Source of the DNA: a virus
Virus record (IMG/VR): IMGVR_UViG_3300025070_000149
Coordinates: 1-30,683 of that record
Length of the DNA stretch: 30,683 bases
Direction: 5' to 3' (one strand)
Shown in pieces: positions 9,796 to 23,155 of the stretch (the first letter of the stretch is position 1; each line of letters opens with the position of its first letter). Both the position numbers and the translations under genes were made by a program. Below the pieces are notes generated by a model that searched no databases, was not told the DNA's origin, and was given only the letters and a program-made list of their open reading frames with translations.

Positions 9796-11580
9796 ATGGA
9801 ATTAGTATTTGATATTGAAACGAATGGATTGCTTTGGGAATTTGAATCAAAAAATAAAGAAACAGGGGAACTGGAAAGAGTTCCGGCTGCTGATAGTATT
9901 TGGTGTATTGTTGCTATTGATGAAAATAATAAAGTATATTCATTTGATCCTACACAAATTGACGAGGGCATTGAGTTTCTAAAGTCAGCCGATATTCTAG
10001 TTGGTCACAACATCATTGGCTTTGATCTCCCCATAATTAAAAAACTAAAGCATGTTGATTTATATAAACATGCTAAAGTTCTTGATACCTTGACCCTATC
10101 AAGACTGTTACACCCGACAAGAGAAGGTGGACACAGCCTAGAAAAATGGGGATGGAAACTCAACTGCCCTAAGTCAGACTCGCCTGATTTTAAATCTTAC
10201 AGTAAAGAAATGATGGACTATTGTATTCAAGATGTAAAAGTAAATAAATTAGTTTTAGAAAAACTTAGATCAGACAGTTCAGGATTTAGTAAAGATTCTG
10301 TAGAAATTGAACATGAAACAAGTAAGATATTATCAGATCAGGAACAACAAGGATTTTTATTTGATGAAAAAAATGCTACACTTTTATTAAGTTCTTTAAA
10401 TAAAAGAAAAAAAGAAGTCGAAACAGAAGTTCATCATACTTTTAAACCTAAACTTGTGGATGTTAAACGTGTGTTTCCAAAACTTAAAAAAGATGGAACA
10501 CTGTCTAAGTCAGGTTTAACTGAAGAGGAATATTTAGAAAGGAAAGAGACTAATGATATGAACTCTTTCATGAGGCAAGAGCTACAAGAATTTAATCTTG
10601 GAAGTAGAAAACAAATAGGTGAGTACTTAATTGATTTTGGTTGGAAGCCTAAAAGATTTACCCCAACAGGACAACCTATTGTTGATGAAGGAACACTAAA
10701 AAAAATATCTCATATTAAAGAAGCTCAATTAATTGCAGAGTTTTTACTCTTACAAAAAAGAGCTGCTCAAGTTGAGTCATGGTTAGATGCTGTTAAAAAC
10801 GATGGCAGAGTTCATGGTTCTGTTATTTGTACTGGTACTATTACAGGTCGAATGGCACACAGAAGCCCAAACATGGCTCAAGTACCTGCTGTATATAGTC
10901 CTTTTGGTAAAGAGTGCAGGTCTTGTTGGACAGTACCTGATGGATATAAACTTGTAGGTGTAGATGCAAGTGGATTAGAATTAAGAATGTTAGCACACTA
11001 CATGGCTGACGAGGAGTATGTAAATGAAATTATCAATGGAGACATTCACACAACTAACCAAAAGTTTGCTGGACTTGAATCAAGAGATCAGGCAAAAACT
11101 TTCATCTATGCACTCATATACGGAGCAGGAGACGAAAAACTTGGAAGCATTGTTAATGGAAGCAGAGCAGACGGTAAGAAGTTGCGAGAACGCTTTTTTA
11201 GTAGTCTCCCAACACTTAGAACTCTTAAAGAACGAGTTGATAGAGCAGCAAAGAAAAAATTTTTAAAAGGTTTAGATGGTAGAAAGATATTTGTTAGACA
11301 TGAACACGCTGCTTTAAATACCTTATTACAAGGAGGAGGAGCAGTAGCAATGAAAAAGGGGTTGATACTACTGAATACTCGTTTGTCTCTTGCAAATCTT
11401 GATTATAAATTTGTAGGTAATATTCATGATGAATGGCAAATAGAAGTAAAAGAATGTCAAGCTAATAGAGTTGGTCAACTTGCTGTTGAAAGTATTATAG
11501 ATGCAGGAACATATTTTAACATGCGTTGTCCGTTAGATGGTGAATATAAAATAGGAGGAAACTGGAGTGACACACATTAA
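9796..11580 (+). CDS. Family A DNA polymerase, T7-like
   Basis: The protein copies the phage genome. The N-terminal 3'-5' exonuclease shows DIETNGL (D6, E8) and a YCIQDV motif near residue 145. The polymerase palm and fingers show motif A VGVDASGLELRMLAHY (D390), motif B RDQAKTFIYALIYGAG (R430, K434, Tyr438 at the place of T7 Tyr526), and motif C HDEW (D545). With 594 residues it is about 110 shorter than T7 gp5 (704), so the thioredoxin-binding loop is probably missing or shorter; processivity may then come from the helicase and SSB tails. The last 14 bases overlap the GIY-YIG gene. Confidence 0.95.
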   Translation: MELVFDIETNGLLWEFESKNKETGELERVPAADSIWCIVAIDENNKVYSFDPTQIDEGIEFLKSADILVGHNIIGFDLPIIKKLKHVDLYKHAKVLDTLTLSRLLHPTREGGHSLEKWGWKLNCPKSDSPDFKSYSKEMMDYCIQDVKVNKLVLEKLRSDSSGFSKDSVEIEHETSKILSDQEQQGFLFDEKNATLLLSSLNKRKKEVETEVHHTFKPKLVDVKRVFPKLKKDGTLSKSGLTEEEYLERKETNDMNSFMRQELQEFNLGSRKQIGEYLIDFGWKPKRFTPTGQPIVDEGTLKKISHIKEAQLIAEFLLLQKRAAQVESWLDAVKNDGRVHGSVICTGTITGRMAHRSPNMAQVPAVYSPFGKECRSCWTVPDGYKLVGVDASGLELRMLAHYMADEEYVNEIINGDIHTTNQKFAGLESRDQAKTFIYALIYGAGDEKLGSIVNGSRADGKKLRERFFSSLPTLRTLKERVDRAAKKKFLKGLDGRKIFVRHEHAALNTLLQGGGAVAMKKGLILLNTRLSLANLDYKFVGNIHDEWQIEVKECQANRVGQLAVESIIDAGTYFNMRCPLDGEYKIGGNWSDTH

Positions 11581-12118
11581 TTGTAACGAGTGTGGGGTTA
11601 AATTAACTGATGATAATTGGCAACCCTCACGTAAAGAAAGAAAAGAAAAAGTATGTATTCCATGCTATGCGACTTTAGAAAAATATACTAAAAGAAACAC
11701 AGAACGAATGTTTGTTAACGGTAAGTACATAAGTAAAACTCATCCGTTGTATAAACCCGGACATTACAAAACATTTGAAGATGCTGCGTTTCAATCTTTA
11801 TCTAGCTATTCTAGTAGTAAAGAAGGTCAAGTATATATTATTACAAACCCTGCTTGGAAAGGCTGGATTAAAGTTGGTATGGCTATAGAAGCAATTGACA
11901 GATGTAACCAATATCAAACATCTTCGCCTATGCGGGATTATAAACTTGAATATTATAAAGACTTTAAAAACAGAAGACTTGCTGAATCAAACGCACACAA
12001 GCTTTGTAGCAAACAAGCTATAGAAAGAAATGGTGAATGGTTTAAACTGTCTATTAAAAAAGCTATCAGTTTAATTGATAGTATAACTGAGGAAGAATAT
12101 GAAAAAGAAACAGCTTGA
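11567..12118 (+). CDS. GIY-YIG (T5orf172-like) nuclease-domain protein with zinc ribbon
   Basis: The start is GTG 11567, inside the end of the polymerase gene, behind TAGGAGGAA. The 183-residue product has an N-terminal zinc ribbon (C6, C9, C30, C33) and a GIY-YIG-type domain from about residue 86: VYIITNP (Y90), a WIKVGMA strand (K102-G104), R112, E140, and a closing NGEWF. This matches the T5orf172/MUG113 branch. Such domains nick or cut DNA, and act as homing endonucleases, resolvases or repair nucleases. The position inside the replication operon, with overlaps on both sides, suggests a regular replication or recombination role. A homing role cannot be excluded, but no intron is seen in the polymerase. 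Confidence 0.75.
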   Translation: MTHINCNECGVKLTDDNWQPSRKERKEKVCIPCYATLEKYTKRNTERMFVNGKYISKTHPLYKPGHYKTFEDAAFQSLSSYSSSKEGQVYIITNPAWKGWIKVGMAIEAIDRCNQYQTSSPMRDYKLEYYKDFKNRRLAESNAHKLCSKQAIERNGEWFKLSIKKAISLIDSITEEEYEKETA

Positions 12119-13822: not shown

Positions 13823-14084
13823 TTACAAATTTAATGAAGACAAACTATTACAAGAGCTTAAAGGATACATTGATGCTACATACAGTCAGCATTATGCATC
13901 CGATAAATATCAGGCTACCGATGTTATTATTGATTCGGGACATGGTGAGGGCTTTAGTCTTGGTAATATTATGAAGTATGCTAAACGCTACGGTAATAAA
14001 GAAGGAAAGAACAGAAAAGACTTGCTTAAAATATTACACTATGCTATAATAATGCTTTATGTACACGACAAAGAGAACATATAA
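13809..14084 (+). CDS. DUF3310 protein, T7 gp1.7 relative (possible nucleotide kinase)
   Basis: I chose ATG 13809, behind AAGGA; upstream in-frame ATGs lie inside the endonuclease gene without RBS. The 91-residue product has the DUF3310 pattern: SQHYASDKYQATDVI (about residues 26-40), then GFSLGNIMKYAKRYGNKEGK (about 48-67) and a helical KDLLKILHYAIIML. T7 gp1.7 is reported to be a nucleotide kinase, and the flanking endonuclease and reductase genes fit nucleotide supply. Activity here is inferred. Its stop overlaps the NrdA ATG (TAATG). Confidence 0.75.
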   Translation: MKKTNYKFNEDKLLQELKGYIDATYSQHYASDKYQATDVIIDSGHGEGFSLGNIMKYAKRYGNKEGKNRKDLLKILHYAIIMLYVHDKENI

Positions 14085-16009
14085 TGATAGAAGATAAAGT
14101 AGGTATCAAGGAATATCTTGGTATAAAAATAAATTATAGTAACGAAAAAAATTTAGATAAGTTTAGCCTTGACACACTCAAGGATAGATACTTATGGGAG
14201 AAACGTAATAAAGATGGGGAAATCGAAGTTAAAGAAACACACGCACAGGAAGCATTTGCCAGAGCCTCAGTCTTCGGAGCTACCTACAAAGGTCACACAG
14301 ATTTTGACTTGGCTCAAAGGCTTTATCACTACAGTTCCAACTGTTGGTTCATGTTTAGCACTCCTATACTTAGTAACGGAGGAACAAGTCGTGGGCTTCC
14401 TATTAGCTGTTTCCTCAATTATGTACCTGACAGCAGGGATGGTTTATCTGCTCACTATAACGAGAATATATGGTTGGCGAGTTCAGGCGGAGGTATTGGT
14501 GGATATTGGGGAGATATTAGGAGTAACGGTATTTCTACTACTCATGGCAGTCGTTCTACTGGTTCAATTCCTTTCATCCATGTCGTAGATTCTCAGATGT
14601 TAGCCTTTAATCAAGGCACAACAAGACGTGGTTCTTATGCAGCTTACATGGATATATCTCATCCGGAGATTGAAGAGTTCATTAACATGCGTAAAGAATC
14701 AGGTGGAGATATTAATCGTAAGAATCTTAATCTTCATAATGGTATTAACATTACCAATGAGTTCTTGAAAGCTGTTGAAGAAGATGCAGACTTTAGATTG
14801 ATTGACCCTAAGACTAACGAGCCTACTAAGATTGTAAATGCTAGAGACTTGTGGTGGCAGATCATTAATGCTAGAGCAGAGACAGGTGAGCCTTACATGG
14901 TCAACATAGATAGATGTAACGAAGCTTTACCTAAAGAACAAAAAGATTTAGGATTAGAAATCAAACAGAGCAATCTTTGTTCTGAGATTACGTTACCTAC
15001 TAACGAAGAAAGAACAGCAGTATGTTGTTTATCTTCTGTCAACTTAGAATACTTTGATGAATGGTCAGAAAACCCTATGTTCATTGAAGATTTAATAACC
15101 ATGCTAGACAACGTGCTTCAACATTATATTGATAACGCTGTCGATACAGATAACTTAGGAGAGTACAATGCAAACTTTAAAAGGTTTCAAAAACATATTA
15201 AGCAGGGCAAAGAAGGCTTTACTAAGTCTGCCTACTCGGCTTATAGAGAAAGGTCGTTGGGTCTTGGTGCGATGGGATTCCATTCGTATCTCCAATCACG
15301 CAACTTACCTTTTGAAGGTATCTATGCTACGGGCTTCAATCATAAAGCGTTTAAATATCTTAAAACACAAGCAACCAGAGCTTCTGAAAGACTTGCAGAG
15401 GACAGGGGTGAAGCTCCTGATGTCAGTGGTAGTGGGAGGCGTAATGCTCATCTACTCGCTGTTGCTCCTAACGCTAGTTCTAGTATCATATGTGGCGGTA
15501 CTTCTCCTTCGATTGAGCCATATCGTGCTAACGTTTATACGCACAAGACTCTCTCAGGTTCGTTCCAAGTTAAAAACAAATACTTAGACGAGATACTACA
15601 AGATAAAGGTTTAAAGAAAGATGAGTTGACTGCATTGTGGAAAGACATTGCAGGTAACGATGGTTCAGTACAGCACCTTGATATCTTAACAGATGATGAA
15701 AAAGAAATATTTAAAACTGCTAATGAGATAGATCAGATATGGATTATAGAACATGCTTCTAAAAGACAAGAGTTTATCTGTCAAGCACAATCAGTTAATC
15801 TTTTCTTTACACTTCCAAAGGCTACAGAGTCACAGGAAGTACACGATGAGTACATGCAGTACGTTAATGATGTACACTGGTATGGGATGAACAAACTTAA
15901 ATCTCTATACTACTTCAGGTCTAATGCTGCTCGTAGTGTAGAAAATGTAAACTTAAAAGTTCAGCGTATTAAATTAGATGATGCTGAATGTATAGCTTGT
16001 GAGGGATAG
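14084..16009 (+). CDS. nrdA: Class I ribonucleotide reductase, large subunit
   Basis: It reduces ribonucleotides to deoxyribonucleotides with NrdB. Visible catalytic residues are C109 (ISCFLNY), N297, C299 and E301 in SNLCSEI, and C314 or C315 in AVCCLSSVNL; the redox pair C636 and C639 lies in the C-terminal CIACEG. Glycine-rich SSGGGIGGYWG and APNASSS stretches fit the family. At 641 residues it is about 120 shorter than E. coli NrdA, and the sequence reaches the catalytic domain within about 30 residues, so the N-terminal ATP cone that gives dATP inhibition is missing. That would keep dNTP synthesis on. It starts by TAATG overlap with the DUF3310 gene. Confidence 0.95.
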   Translation: MIEDKVGIKEYLGIKINYSNEKNLDKFSLDTLKDRYLWEKRNKDGEIEVKETHAQEAFARASVFGATYKGHTDFDLAQRLYHYSSNCWFMFSTPILSNGGTSRGLPISCFLNYVPDSRDGLSAHYNENIWLASSGGGIGGYWGDIRSNGISTTHGSRSTGSIPFIHVVDSQMLAFNQGTTRRGSYAAYMDISHPEIEEFINMRKESGGDINRKNLNLHNGINITNEFLKAVEEDADFRLIDPKTNEPTKIVNARDLWWQIINARAETGEPYMVNIDRCNEALPKEQKDLGLEIKQSNLCSEITLPTNEERTAVCCLSSVNLEYFDEWSENPMFIEDLITMLDNVLQHYIDNAVDTDNLGEYNANFKRFQKHIKQGKEGFTKSAYSAYRERSLGLGAMGFHSYLQSRNLPFEGIYATGFNHKAFKYLKTQATRASERLAEDRGEAPDVSGSGRRNAHLLAVAPNASSSIICGGTSPSIEPYRANVYTHKTLSGSFQVKNKYLDEILQDKGLKKDELTALWKDIAGNDGSVQHLDILTDDEKEIFKTANEIDQIWIIEHASKRQEFICQAQSVNLFFTLPKATESQEVHDEYMQYVNDVHWYGMNKLKSLYYFRSNAARSVENVNLKVQRIKLDDAECIACEG

Positions 16010-16155: not shown

Positions 16156-16335
16156 ATGAAACAATCAGACTTTGACAAGGTGTTTAGTCAGAAGTTTTCT
16201 GGCTTTACAAGTAGGATGTGGTTAGATTATTGTGATGAACATAAAGACCCATTCTCAAAAACAAAAGATTACGCAGGATACGTAATTGAAAATTTAAAAT
16301 ATTTAGTTAAGAAATTTAACAAGGAGAACAGATGA
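16156..16335 (+). CDS. Small hypothetical protein between nrdA and nrdB, 59 aa
   Basis: AAGGA precedes ATG 16156, and the TGA overlaps the NrdB ATG (ATGA). The product has a short helical, charged sequence with a WLDYCDEHKDP stretch and a Lys-rich end. No recognised domain. Its place between the two reductase genes suggests shared expression, not necessarily shared function. Confidence 0.65.
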   Translation: MKQSDFDKVFSQKFSGFTSRMWLDYCDEHKDPFSKTKDYAGYVIENLKYLVKKFNKENR

Positions 16336-17315
16336 GCTTATTAGACACGAGAGATTACTACAAACCATTCGATAACCCGTGGATGTTTGACTACTATGTC
16401 TTACAAAACCAAATGCATTGGATGCCGGAGTCAGTACCACTACACACTGATGTAAAAGATTGGCAGGAGTTAGATTCAAAAGAAAAGAATTTACTTACCC
16501 AAATCTTTAGGTTGTTTACTCAATCCGATGTAGACGTTGGTGCAGGTTATGTCGATAGATACATGCGTATATTTAGAAAGCCTGAAGCACGTATGATGAT
16601 GGGTTCGTTTGCAAACATGGAGTCTATCCATCAACATGCTTACAGCTTACTCCTTGATACAGTGGGTATGCCTGAGATAGAGTACAAAGCTTTTGCAGAG
16701 TACGAAGAAATGGCTGATAAACACGAGTATGTTCATAACATCAAGACCATCAAGAAAGATAAGAAAAGTATTGCAAAAACTTTAGCAGTCTATTCAGCTT
16801 TTACAGAAGGACTACAGTTGTTTAGTAGCTTTGCAATCTTGTTAAACTTTCCAAGGTTCGGCAAGATGAAAGGTATGGGACAGATAGTTACTTACTCTAT
16901 CCGTGATGAGTCTATGCATGTTGAAGCTATGACTAAATTGTTTAGAGAGTTTATTCAAGAGAACATAGAGATATGGACAGATGATTTTAAAGCAGAACTC
17001 TACGAGATTTGTAGACAGATGGTAACACTAGAAGATAAATTCTTAGACCTAGTGTTTGATATGGGAGACTTACAGGGTCTTACCAAGAAAGATATGTATG
17101 CTTACAATAGATACATAGCCGATAGAAGATTGTTACAGCTTGGTCTTAAAACCAACTATGACCAACGTGAGAATCCTCTAGGTTGGTTGGATGAAGTGAT
17201 GGGTGTTGAACATCAGAACTTCTTTGAAGGTCGTGCTACTTCTTACATGAAAGCAGGACTACGTGGTAGACAGGATAAGATAACCTTTGCAAATTTGGAG
17301 AGTGATAATGGTTAA
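16332..17315 (+). CDS. nrdB: Class I ribonucleotide reductase, small subunit
   Basis: It holds the diiron centre that makes the radical for NrdA. Likely ligands are D66 (or D68) in FTQSDVDVG, E97 and H100 in MESIHQHAY, E159 in TEGLQLFSS, and E193 and H196 in DESMHVEAM. Y104, seven residues after E97, is placed like the radical Tyr122 of E. coli. Length (327 aa) is slightly under E. coli's 376. The C-terminus reads ...ANLESDNG instead of the usual acidic or aromatic tail that docks on the large subunit, so docking may differ. AAGGAG precedes the ATG. Together with NrdA it supplies dNTPs for phage DNA. Confidence 0.95.
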   Translation: MSLLDTRDYYKPFDNPWMFDYYVLQNQMHWMPESVPLHTDVKDWQELDSKEKNLLTQIFRLFTQSDVDVGAGYVDRYMRIFRKPEARMMMGSFANMESIHQHAYSLLLDTVGMPEIEYKAFAEYEEMADKHEYVHNIKTIKKDKKSIAKTLAVYSAFTEGLQLFSSFAILLNFPRFGKMKGMGQIVTYSIRDESMHVEAMTKLFREFIQENIEIWTDDFKAELYEICRQMVTLEDKFLDLVFDMGDLQGLTKKDMYAYNRYIADRRLLQLGLKTNYDQRENPLGWLDEVMGVEHQNFFEGRATSYMKAGLRGRQDKITFANLESDNG

Positions 17316-18242: not shown

Positions 18243-18479
18243 CTAATTTTCTGTAGTTAAAGTTAAAGAAAGTAAATCATTTACTGAATCTACTAAATAC
18301 TCAGGTATAGTTGTAGAAAAAATATCATCTTCTTTGTATGCAATCATGTAAGATTCTATCAAATCTTCATACAAAGGTCTAAAGTCTTCACGAGTTATCC
18401 AAGGCTCATCTGATTGACTACGAGCTTTACAGTCTATTCTGTATGCCACGTCTAATTGCTTTTCTGTATATAGTAACAT
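18243..18479 (-). CDS. Hypothetical protein, 78 aa
   Basis: I chose ATG 18479, whose A lies in the TAA stop of the giant upstream gene (TAATG); a longer frame starting at 18557 would lie inside that gene. The product begins MLLYTEKQLDVAYRIDC and has a PWITREDFRPLYEDLIE stretch, mostly helical and acidic. I recall similar short proteins next to internal virion or lysis genes in marine phages. Function unknown. Confidence 0.7.
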   Translation of the reverse strand: MLLYTEKQLDVAYRIDCKARSQSDEPWITREDFRPLYEDLIESYMIAYKEDDIFSTTIPEYLVDSVNDLLSLTLTTEN

Positions 18480-21400
18480 TATTTTAAATATTTTAAATCT
18501 GTTAAATATTTCTCTACAGTACCTGCCCCTTCTTCCGTGTTCCAGTCTTTTTTCCACTGCTTTGCTCTTATTTCTTTTGTTTCTCCGATTGGTTCCGGTA
18601 CTCTTTTTAATAAAGCCCTTGTGACTAGGGTAGCTATTTCAGGATTGTTGAGGTCATCATATGCGATGTCTTGATAATTTGCTCCATATTTTTTTTCCAT
18701 CTTTGAAACATATCTTCTTAATCCAGCACCTACTTCAGAATCTTCTTTTAAAGAATCTGTATAGTCTTGAAATCTAATAGGTGTTATTTGATAGGCACTT
18801 CTGTTATCTTTTCTAAAAGTTTCTTTATCAGTTGCAAACTTTGACTCAACCCACGCAAACTCACGGAGTAATTGAGCATCTAAATCTGATTCAGCAAACT
18901 TTAAAATAGCTGATTCATATGCATCTTTACCAATGTACTCAGGTCTAACTGGACCACCTTCATTATAAGGCTTCCTTACTTTTCTAATAATAACACCGAC
19001 ACCAGACATTTTATATTTGTTAGGTAAGTCCATTACATCATAGTCTTCACCTAAAGTTTTATTTAAATATTCTTTTAATTCTTTACGGGTAAAACCTTTT
19101 TGATAAGTTCCTTTTGCTGTGATAAGCTCTGAATCAGAAAGTTTGCTTTTTGCTTTTGGTGATGCTTTTAAAACATCATCTTTTGATCTAACTGTAATAA
19201 TAGCCATACCGTTATCATCTAATAACCTTCCAATATTTTTTACAGCTTTATCTCGATCTGCTTTTTGTAAAACATTTAGAACTGAAAAGTTTGTAATAAA
19301 ATCATATTTTTTATTTATATCTTCTGCTCTTACAAAATCAGGCATCCCATATTTTTCTGCTTTATCTAGTTGAGGGAACGGTTCAAAAGTGTCTGCATTT
19401 AAAGCTTGTTTAGCTTGATTCACTTGCATTCCGGAACCATAATCTAGTGAGTTAAATTTCTGATAGTCTTCCATAATTTTTGCAGCTTTTGAATATGTAC
19501 CACCTGTTGTAGCTATTTGAGTTTTCTGAGCCAATGATTTATCATAAGCTTTTGAAATAAATTTAGAAGCAATTTTACCTCCAATATTTTTCTTTACTCT
19601 ACTAACTTCTATCACTTTTTCAAAAGGTGATTTTAAAACTGCAGCAGTTTTACTAGGATTCCATCCCTCTTTTTTTAAATTTAATTCATTTTGTAATTTA
19701 AAATTAATAACTTTTAATAATTTATTTTTACCCTGCTCTGCAATTCTTTTTTCAACATCTGATTGAAATGATAGTTTAGGCTCGTCTTTATAAACATAAT
19801 TTACAAGTTCTCTTTTTAATAAATTAAATGAATTTGGAAAACTTATTTTATGATAAGGACTTAATACGTTATTTAATTTAGAAACATATTCATTTTTATT
19901 TTCGTATGAACCAATCATAGAATCAATAGTTTTTTTAAGACTATCTATTTCTTTCTTTTCAGGAGGAACCATGACTATTTGACCTTTACTAAAACCTAGT
20001 CTATCCATTTGTTCTTGATAAGGTTCTCCAGTAAAAGGATTAACTCTTTCAGCAGCGTTATCTTTTGTAAAAGGAACTTCCGGACCTTCTATTACTTCTT
20101 CGCCTACTACACCACCTACGGAAAACTGATCTCTATAATCTATTTCTTGCATAGTGTATGGGTCTATTTGAGATACAGGACCACCTTGAAACTTTAATAA
20201 TCTGTTTCTTGTAAGTAAACTAGCCTCTTCTGTTTCTCTGGCTGTTACGACATCAGCTCCTTCTCTAAATCCTTTCAGAATCTTTTTATCTATTTCTTTT
20301 GCAGCTTTTTGTAAAGGAGTATAAGGGTCTCTAAATCCTGTATACTCTTCCATAATATCTCCGACAGCTCTGTCAAAAATATTTTTAGTTCCTGTTAAAG
20401 GAATTTTTCTAGCTGCTGTTTCTAAAAATCCTCGGTTATATAAAGTTAACCCAATGATATCATTAATGACTGGACCACCAACACCAGTTGTAGCCACTAG
20501 TGGATTCTGACCATATGAAATACCTTCAGTAATTCTAACCGGATATTCCAATGGACCAAGAAGTCCAACACGTTGATAGGCTTTTAAAGTATCTCTCCAA
20601 TCAGTACCATCGTCTTTTATTCTTTCTCTTTCTTCAGGAGAACTTCTCCAGTAATTAGTAGCCTTAGCAACGTTTGTAGACATTAAAACAAAGGCTGCAA
20701 GTTTAGGTGCGTTAACTGTAGTATCAGTTATTGTATCTCTAGCAAAGTTTCGTAATACAGTATTACCAAAAACTGTGGGATATCTTAAAAACTGTGTAAA
20801 TATATCTACTTTTGGATTTGTCATAAAAGTAGGAACAGTTGCATATTCTCTAGATGTCTGTAAGATAACTCCATTTGTAAATCTTCCAGCACCTCTAATA
20901 ATATCATTACGGTAAAACTCATCAGACTTCGCTTGGTCTGTTACTTCATCCCCATACTTTTTAGTCCACGTCAGACCCTTATCAATATCTATACCTAGAT
21001 CATTTAATTCACCTGTTAATCTTTCTATTTTAGATTTACTAAGTCCTTTAGGGTCTGCTAATTGTTTTAAGTTTGTTTGAATTAAATCTTTACCTGTTGA
21101 AAACGAAGCAAGTTGAACTGTTTTTGTCCAAGGTATAAGTAAATTAAATCTATAAAAACGTCTAGCTTGTTTTTGTAAAAACTCATTTTGTAATCCTTCT
21201 CCAGATAAACGATTTGTTACATCAGACATTGCTTCATCTACGGCAAGAAATACACTATTCATTTCTTTTAATACTTCATCATCTGTCAAGTTATGTTTTT
21301 CTTTTAATAGTTGAGATATTTCAGAGGTAAATAATTTATGACCTCGTGTAATACCATCTTGTGCTCCTTTGATAGCAGAACTTGTTGGAGCTTTACCAAG

Positions 21401-23155
21401 TGTAATGAATGCTTCTGACAATGAAGATACAGTAGCTAGTGGCAGATAAGCCATAGCATTAGCAAGTTTAGTACCATCATAGATACCTTGGATTAAGCCA
21501 CTGTCAAAGTAATCAACCTGACCAGTAACAGATTTATACACATCAATAATTCTTTGTTTTTCTTTAGCTGATAATCCTTTACCTTTTCTTGCTGCCCTTA
21601 ATTCAGCATCAATAGGATTAATAAATCTTTCAACAAACTGAGATTGATTATCTTGTTTAAATAATATAAGGTTTTCGTCTTCAGTTTTTCCTATTACTCT
21701 AACGTCTCGACCAGCATTTAAAAAATGTTTTTTATGCTCAATAGTCTTAGCAGCATTCATAAAATAATTTGTAGTAACAGGAACTAAATCATTTGTAAGA
21801 AATTCTGCAAATTCATTATCATCTAAATTTTCAAACTTACGGGCTTGAGTTAAAAGATTTGAATGAGAACTATAAAGTTCGTTTTGTTTATTTAACATTC
21901 CCTCAACAACACTATCAGCTTTATCAGCTTCGACAATATTATTATCAATTAATTTTTGTTTAAATACTTCAGGATTACTTTTAATGGCGTCTCTGTTCCA
22001 AGAACGAGGAAAATAATTTTCTATATACTTAGGGTCCAGACCAACTTCTTCTGCATCTTTTTTAATTTGATCAAAAAATAATCTTAAATTTTCTGCAGTT
22101 TGTCTTACAGCCTGACTTGCTCCAGCAACTTCACCGCCTCGCATTAAAGTTATAACAGCTTGTTCATCTTCTGGTAAAACTTCTCCAACCTGTCTAATTG
22201 GAGCAACAGCTTCATCAAATCCTAGTTTATAATTACCTCTTCTAAAGTTAATATCTTCAGCATATGAATAACCTACTCTACGTTTAGTTTTAGCTACTAA
22301 ACTTTTATCAAACTCTGAAGTAAATTTTTGACCCAGTAATCTTGCAGTGGGTGAAAACTCTGCATCAGTTTTTAAAATCCAAGCAGGACTTGCAAGTGTT
22401 TTAGCTAGTAAAGTATCTTTTGCTTTTCTTAAATTATATAATAAATCACTACCGGCTTCTTTTCTATAGCCATCATCAGTATAAAGTTTTTCTAGTCTGT
22501 CTTGGAAGAACTCGTTTTTTCTTGCAAGTCCTCCAAAAATACCACCTGTCAAAGCTCCAATAGCTGTACTGCCTACTAATTCAGGCTTAGAATAAAGCTT
22601 TCTCATATTGGTATTTATTTCGGTGTTTTGTCTAAAATGATTATCTAGACCTGTCCATGCACCAACTTCTGCTGCAGCAATTCCAACTGTTTGAGCAGGA
22701 GTAATTTTACTTTTTGCTATATTTTTTAAACCTTGATTTACACCAGTTGCTACCGCCTGTCTCGCACCAAAAGAAGTTCCTCCAGTAACAGGAGTTAATA
22801 AAGCAGCAGCAATAGCAGTTGGGTCTGTCGAAATATCAACAGCAGCATCTTTAACAAGCTCAATATATTGTTTCAAGCTGCCCATGTCTGCTCTGTCAAA
22901 ACGAGAACGTAGATATTTATAGTCGTCTTTTTGCTGTTGAGTGAATTTTTCACTATTTATGGCACGTTGCATACCATTAAATAAGTTAAAATCAGAGTCT
23001 CTTAAATACTCAAATATATCATCAGACTGTTCTCCTACAGAACTTAAAAACCTTTCTGATATTTCTTGAAAGTCTTCGTTTTTTTCTAAATCATCTAATG
23101 TATAATTACGACCTAAACGAGATTTTTTATTTCCCTTGGTAGAAAGTAGTGTCAT
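18479..23155 (-). CDS. Giant internal virion (ejection) protein with methyltransferase and transglycosylase-like domains
   Basis: At 1558 residues it is the largest gene and stands where T7 has gp16 (1318 aa). Residues 1 to about 1000 are helical, with hydrophobic stretches near 105-130 and 190-210, and probably form the virion core or ejection channel. Then comes a low-complexity part with GGPV and GGVV motifs. Around 1215-1390 lies a class I SAM methyltransferase: SLDYGSGMQ (about 1236-1244) and NFSVLNVLQ. Around 1415-1540 is a lysozyme-like fold: E1437 in REFAWVESKF, then AYQITPIRF, as in lytic transglycosylases that open peptidoglycan during entry. T7 gp16 carries its transglycosylase at the N-terminus; here it is at the C-terminus. 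The methyltransferase in a virion protein is unusual. Active-site assignments are by motif only. Confidence 0.75.
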   Translation of the reverse strand: MTLLSTKGNKKSRLGRNYTLDDLEKNEDFQEISERFLSSVGEQSDDIFEYLRDSDFNLFNGMQRAINSEKFTQQQKDDYKYLRSRFDRADMGSLKQYIELVKDAAVDISTDPTAIAAALLTPVTGGTSFGARQAVATGVNQGLKNIAKSKITPAQTVGIAAAEVGAWTGLDNHFRQNTEINTNMRKLYSKPELVGSTAIGALTGGIFGGLARKNEFFQDRLEKLYTDDGYRKEAGSDLLYNLRKAKDTLLAKTLASPAWILKTDAEFSPTARLLGQKFTSEFDKSLVAKTKRRVGYSYAEDINFRRGNYKLGFDEAVAPIRQVGEVLPEDEQAVITLMRGGEVAGASQAVRQTAENLRLFFDQIKKDAEEVGLDPKYIENYFPRSWNRDAIKSNPEVFKQKLIDNNIVEADKADSVVEGMLNKQNELYSSHSNLLTQARKFENLDDNEFAEFLTNDLVPVTTNYFMNAAKTIEHKKHFLNAGRDVRVIGKTEDENLILFKQDNQSQFVERFINPIDAELRAARKGKGLSAKEKQRIIDVYKSVTGQVDYFDSGLIQGIYDGTKLANAMAYLPLATVSSLSEAFITLGKAPTSSAIKGAQDGITRGHKLFTSEISQLLKEKHNLTDDEVLKEMNSVFLAVDEAMSDVTNRLSGEGLQNEFLQKQARRFYRFNLLIPWTKTVQLASFSTGKDLIQTNLKQLADPKGLSKSKIERLTGELNDLGIDIDKGLTWTKKYGDEVTDQAKSDEFYRNDIIRGAGRFTNGVILQTSREYATVPTFMTNPKVDIFTQFLRYPTVFGNTVLRNFARDTITDTTVNAPKLAAFVLMSTNVAKATNYWRSSPEERERIKDDGTDWRDTLKAYQRVGLLGPLEYPVRITEGISYGQNPLVATTGVGGPVINDIIGLTLYNRGFLETAARKIPLTGTKNIFDRAVGDIMEEYTGFRDPYTPLQKAAKEIDKKILKGFREGADVVTARETEEASLLTRNRLLKFQGGPVSQIDPYTMQEIDYRDQFSVGGVVGEEVIEGPEVPFTKDNAAERVNPFTGEPYQEQMDRLGFSKGQIVMVPPEKKEIDSLKKTIDSMIGSYENKNEYVSKLNNVLSPYHKISFPNSFNLLKRELVNYVYKDEPKLSFQSDVEKRIAEQGKNKLLKVINFKLQNELNLKKEGWNPSKTAAVLKSPFEKVIEVSRVKKNIGGKIASKFISKAYDKSLAQKTQIATTGGTYSKAAKIMEDYQKFNSLDYGSGMQVNQAKQALNADTFEPFPQLDKAEKYGMPDFVRAEDINKKYDFITNFSVLNVLQKADRDKAVKNIGRLLDDNGMAIITVRSKDDVLKASPKAKSKLSDSELITAKGTYQKGFTRKELKEYLNKTLGEDYDVMDLPNKYKMSGVGVIIRKVRKPYNEGGPVRPEYIGKDAYESAILKFAESDLDAQLLREFAWVESKFATDKETFRKDNRSAYQITPIRFQDYTDSLKEDSEVGAGLRRYVSKMEKKYGANYQDIAYDDLNNPEIATLVTRALLKRVPEPIGETKEIRAKQWKKDWNTEEGAGTVEKYLTDLKYLK

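Follow-up and report, generated by a model that had tools for sequence, protein, structure and literature searches.

The window analysed here, the whole stretch of 30,683 nucleotides from an IMG/VR virus record, encodes a marine phage protein of 1558 amino acids (18479–23155, minus strand) of the giant virion or ejection type, which carries its cargo at the C-terminus. The ORF has a late-gene setting in the minus-strand gene block of the window, and the 759-aa ORF of the same block is related to proteins of HTVC103P, HTVC115P and HMO-2011. The large and small chains of ribonucleotide reductase (14084–16009 and 16332–17315, plus strand) are encoded in the opposite orientation to the late genes, and an ORF with a T5orf172/MUG113 domain (11567–12118, plus strand) is located immediately 3′ of the DNA polymerase gene. 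The 1558-aa protein begins with a constant front (residues 1–1010; 20126–23155, minus strand, as for all features below), with 62–80% identity in the 13 relatives that cover most of it. The front is followed by an adaptor, or hinge (residues ~1011–1060; 19976–20125), with the sequence FSVGGVV...VPFTKDNAAERVNPFTGEPYQEQMDRLGF, which is kept both in relatives of the front and in proteins with unrelated fronts. Downstream of an AT-rich linker (residues 1061–1189; 19589–19975; GC content of 24%) lies a predicted class I methyltransferase (MTase) domain (residues 1190–1396, the domain proper being about 1206–1396; 18968–19588), recognized from sequence alignment A1, an AlphaFold2 model, fold searches, and Pfam and NCBIfam scans. 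The protein ends with a putative cell-wall-enzyme-like domain (residues 1397–1558; 18482–18967), which starts with YNEGGPV. A second IMG/VR contig, from a different sample, encodes a protein 100% identical to the 1558-aa ORF, making an assembly error unlikely as the source of the MTase fusion.

The AlphaFold2 model, the fold search and the matches to Pfam family Methyltransf_23 all indicate that residues ~1206–1396 adopt the fold of a class I SAM-dependent MTase. The model, built from alignment A1, has a pLDDT of 86.7 and a pTM of 0.84, and 993 of the 1000 PDB chains aligned with it reach Z≥8. An earlier note, made from the sequence alone, had placed an MTase domain at 18950–19530 (residues 1209–1402) and proposed a profile and structure search of residues 1200–1395, and the assignment held in both kinds of search. 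The Methyltransf_23 match of the window domain alone has an E-value of 1.4e-5, which is under the gathering score; the same profile matches all 18 relatives in alignment A1, with 8e-10 as the best value. A sequence search of solved structures with the MTase returned generic MTases and chance matches, all at E≥0.002. The closest solved folds are those of small-molecule, peptide and tRNA MTases. METTL6 is the top match (Z of 15.9 over 188 residues, 2.9 Å); we rejected a reading of tRNA methylation from this likeness, since sugar N-, glycine N- and other small-molecule MTases follow within 1–2 Z units. As far as the model goes, the substrate cannot be read off the fold.

Both sequence hallmarks of class I MTases, a glycine-rich motif I and an acidic motif II, are found in the domain. 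Motif I, LDYGSGMQ (residues 1237–1244; 19424–19447), contains D1238-x-G1240-x-G1242 followed by Q1244, and the acidic residue of motif II is E1258 (19382–19384), where strand 2 ends in the model. The second motif pointed out in the earlier note together with LDYGSGMQ, NFSVLNVL (residues 1289–1296; 19268–19291), is likewise present and lies after strand 4. Two pattern searches confirmed ~370 relatives of the MTase on IMG/VR viral contigs, of which the best 80 were kept and 74 nonredundant domains compared. All 74 keep the Asp and second Gly of motif I and the Glu of motif II, and 99% keep the first Gly, so that a loss of SAM-binding residues in relatives, which would have spoken against the assignment, is not seen. 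The residues invariant across the 74 domains are D1238, G1242, E1258, L1293-N1294, R1301, R1323, the QKGF signature (residues 1352–1355; 19091–19102) and E1359. The window sequence forms a clade with L003, L004, L031 and L032 (99% SH-aLRT support), in which Gln replaces the third motif-I Gly (DYGSGMQ versus DYGAGxG in most relatives). We regard this as a substitution rather than the loss of the predicted SAM site. The dN/dS values of ~0.15–0.24 in three pairs, each of the window domain and a relative, with synonymous sites near saturation, indicate that the domain evolves under purifying selection.

Twelve records of cultured phages carry members of the MTase family, namely those of the pelagiphages HTVC103P and HTVC104P, the roseophages CRP-3 and CRP-738, mycobacteriophages of the Myrna group, a Rhodobacteraceae phage and Microcystis phage MJing1. 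Among named families, NCBIfam TIGR04096 (dnd_rel_methyl), a putative MTase associated with DNA phosphorothioation, comes nearest; it is the most frequent NCBIfam match of the MTase family, with 16 of the 18 members of alignment A1 matching at E≤1 (best 1.1e-8). However, the window domain reaches 17.7 bits where the cut-off is 150, and its match, on the GTYQKGF stretch that includes the QKGF signature, covers only ~33 of 478 profile positions; we do not assign it to TIGR04096. No dnd phosphorothioation genes were seen among the window ORFs scanned, and our literature search on the function of TIGR04096 found no paper. Positions ~482–668 of phrog_2774, a PHROG without a function label, span the MTase in eight of the nine MTase-bearing ORFs scanned, whereas for the window ORF no match was reported at the threshold used. 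When 84,980 species genomes were scanned with a strict pattern, the single match was on an 8.1-kb contig from an Opitutae MAG (L122), which is possibly a phage sequence binned into the MAG; across 96 genomes of the same phylum, the TIGR04096 profile gave short partial matches only, none above the cut-off. A plasmid search with the window MTase domain gave no match, and one with another family member gave marginal matches only. Vibrio plasmid pVb1182-tet encodes a distant relative (L134:2857–3495) with a degenerate motif I, LNYGKGR, and a kept TFQKG. In PADLOC, the MTase part had no match and the front had one weak match to capH.

The front matches PHROGs annotated as virion structural protein and endolysin (phrog_7348, E=3.4e-80; phrog_6958, E=8.6e-20). 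It is also ~21–25% identical to virion or particle proteins of Pseudomonas podophages of the PaP4, TL and tf type (phrog_684, phrog_6958), a weak homology which spans front residues ~507–863 but stops short of any MTase. A search of solved structures by sequence with the front gave nothing. The 1558-aa protein is thus probably carried in the virus particle, and it is this homology to virion structural proteins that underlies the label of a giant ejection protein. A virion link is also seen in relatives. The 1495-aa MTase ORF of L010 (4972–9456) has a match to an internal virion protein (phrog_6651, E=1.9e-37) after the MTase, and the MTase-bearing ORF of L045 has endolysin matches. In L010, a DNA-binding SAP domain is found directly ahead of the MTase. 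Other MTase-bearing ORFs contain the polyvalent domains ART-PolyVal, LPD23, LPD38 and Kinase-PolyVal. The C-terminal domain of the window protein matches phrog_3108 (E=6.6e-14), a PHROG without a function label; it also has a weak match (E=2e-3) to a putative lytic transglycosylase. A single-sequence structure model of these 162 residues has a pLDDT of 40, too low to be of use, and a short-pattern search for relatives of the domain found only the identical contig. Thus, the earlier description of an MTase between a structural part and a lysozyme-like end is borne out for the position and for the homology of the front to virion proteins, while the lysozyme-like nature of the end is plausible.

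Residues 310–1010 of the front were used as a query. This gave 17 loci, one of which is the identical contig, leaving 16 others. Thirteen of these cover most of residues 1–1000 at 62–80% identity, and three (L118, L120, L121) are without the start. The MTase is absent from all 16, as judged by tblastn and by HMM search with filters off. The ORFs of 14 run to a stop codon; those of L112 and L118 are cut, and their C-termini cannot be judged. At the C-terminus, L107 and L121 carry a T4-type Phage_lysozyme domain, L109 carries Phage_lysozyme2, and L113, L114 and L119 carry domains without family assignment. The cargo of L115 (7981–11601) is a ~700-aa region with a sub-threshold match to ART-PolyVal (E=1.7e-4). 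L106, L116 and L117 have nothing past the adaptor, L117 having a ~700-aa region ahead of it. This ~700-aa region, which starts near KLKPIYSRVDDEMGGG, is found between front and adaptor in L108, L109, L110, L111, L115 and L117, with no confident Pfam match in the four scanned (L108, L109, L111, L115). Since close relatives of the front hold other enzymes or nothing at the same spot, the MTase looks like an exchangeable cargo. The converse is seen in L032: no similarity to the window protein is detectable over its first 1306 residues, after which adaptor, linker and MTase align with the window protein unbroken, at 44% identity overall and 76% in the MTase alone. In L003, the MTase is 62% identical to that of the window and the front ~30% identical. 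By these comparisons, the MTase module has evidently moved between virion proteins.

The boundary between front and cargo is occupied by the ~45-aa adaptor, with the consensus FxxGGxVxGxxVPFTKEDPADRxNPFTGxPYxEQMxRLGF. A pattern search confirmed the adaptor in 224 IMG/VR loci, counted without deduplication, of which 80 were kept, and 93 ORFs were analysed. The consensus query found none at E≤1 in 50,697 records of cultured phages. Each of the 93 ORFs has one adaptor. Single-linkage clustering groups their upstream parts into five clusters and their downstream parts into at least 13, counts that vary with BLAST sensitivity and in which some upstream clusters are cargo regions themselves (L108–L117). 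Of the 91 ORFs that are complete at the 3′ end, 13 terminate at the end of the adaptor; three of the 93 carry the MTase, namely, the twin of the window protein, L031 and L032. LysM is also among the cargo linked to the adaptor, as is another ART-PolyVal match below threshold (L179:3127–5079). Thus, fronts of several apparently unrelated kinds are joined by the adaptor to cargo that falls into at least 13 clusters. This pattern marks it as the boundary of cargo exchange between phages, which would proceed by recombination. We also considered whether the GG motif might be a general tag and dismissed this: of 278 ORFs in the tested loci, 56 contain LGFxxGG (1 expected), the matches listed are adaptor-bearing proteins, and no other window ORF has the motif.

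The protein resembles phage polyvalent proteins, large multidomain late-gene proteins thought to enter the cell with the DNA (Iyer et al. 2017, PMC5512222). As in these, unrelated enzymatic domains, among them lysozyme and ART domains, are found in large late-gene proteins. The window ORF combines several unrelated domains in one polypeptide (structural front, MTase and phrog_3108 domain) and is encoded among late or virion genes, both through its minus-strand block and through relatives located beside terminase, portal and capsid genes. Polyvalent proteins as such are already known; what appears to be new is the MTase type and the adaptor, neither of which we found described in the polyvalent-protein literature.

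We therefore lean, with slightly better than even confidence, towards the MTase being an interchangeable C-terminal cargo of an internal, ejection-type virion protein of the polyvalent kind, an injected effector with a target other than DNA. Computation shows the fold, the conserved SAM site, purifying selection, the fusion, cargo swapping and the late-gene context of relatives. Judging from homology, the front would pack the protein into the particle and help to build the ejection conduit. The path would be opened by the terminal cell-wall-enzyme-like domain, and the MTase would enter with or just ahead of the DNA and modify a host molecule before phage gene expression. Rather than a DNA base, the target is most likely a protein, RNA or small molecule of the host, such as a component of the machinery for translation, tRNA or immune signalling. 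The identity of only ~21–25% between the front and virion proteins of cultured phages weighs against an injected cargo, as does the location of stand-alone copies next to terminase and portal genes, which would also suit head assembly.

The latter copies make a role in assembly the main rival. According to this explanation, which we consider unlikely, the enzyme acts while particles are being built, its substrate is a protein of the head, portal or ejection apparatus or the enzyme's own protein, and its carriage in a virion protein is incidental. Stand-alone copies in L006 (1666–2400), L008 (2164–2895) and L069 overlap or abut the genes for the terminase large subunit and portal, and the copies of CRP-3/CRP-738 and Myrna are located in the head cluster: CRP-3 gp36 between the portal and coat genes and Myrna gp97 directly upstream of gp98, which has been treated as a minor capsid protein (PMC7150772). 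However, the module of the window family is freely swapped for lysozymes, an ART-like domain or nothing, unlike what would be expected of a needed assembly step. The earlier note had given action against restriction as an example of what an injected MTase could do. In this role, which has been proposed for DarB of phage P1, an injected DNA MTase would mark the phage DNA as it enters. The class I fold would suit such an enzyme, DNA MTases are a known theme among polyvalent proteins, and the nearest named family is linked by name to DNA phosphorothioation loci. However, polyvalent MTases are mostly EcoKI/TaqI-like N6-adenine enzymes with NPP(Y/F), LPD36 and a SWI2/SNF2 helicase (PMC5512222), and the window MTase, from another MTase group, has none of these. 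A [DNS]PP[YFWH] (NPPY-like) or PC motif is found in none of the 74 MTase domains, and neither the helicase nor LPD36 was detected in the window ORF (Pfam, E≤1) or in 30 MTase-bearing ORFs (E≤0.001), so that DNA-base methylation against restriction is disfavoured. The ~190-aa domain also lacks an evident target-recognition domain, and its nearest folds are those of small-molecule, peptide and tRNA MTases. Hence, this role seems to us still less probable than one in assembly. That the domain of the window clade has degenerated or serves structure alone, with no catalysis, as the Gln in its motif I might suggest, is very improbable given that the remaining SAM-site and signature residues are kept and that the clade is under purifying selection.

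Returning to the injected cargo, a broader proposal, which we put forward tentatively, is that in marine phages a portable adaptor joins unrelated virion fronts to interchangeable injected cargo (MTase, ADP-ribosyltransferase, lysozymes and others), as a counterpart of polymorphic toxin delivery. The adaptor could then be a recombination, processing or delivery signal, and the MTase a new class of injected effector with a non-DNA target. Because injected proteins are active before any phage gene expression, they are leading candidates for a role in shutting down the defences of the host. The MTase family, which is found on hundreds of environmental phage contigs and reaches phages of Mycobacterium, provides a concrete candidate for such an effector, and carriers exist in culture (HTVC103P, HTVC104P, CRP-3, CRP-738, Myrna and MJing1). 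The adaptor, in turn, would provide a sequence handle by which many more cargo domains could be found in environmental phages.
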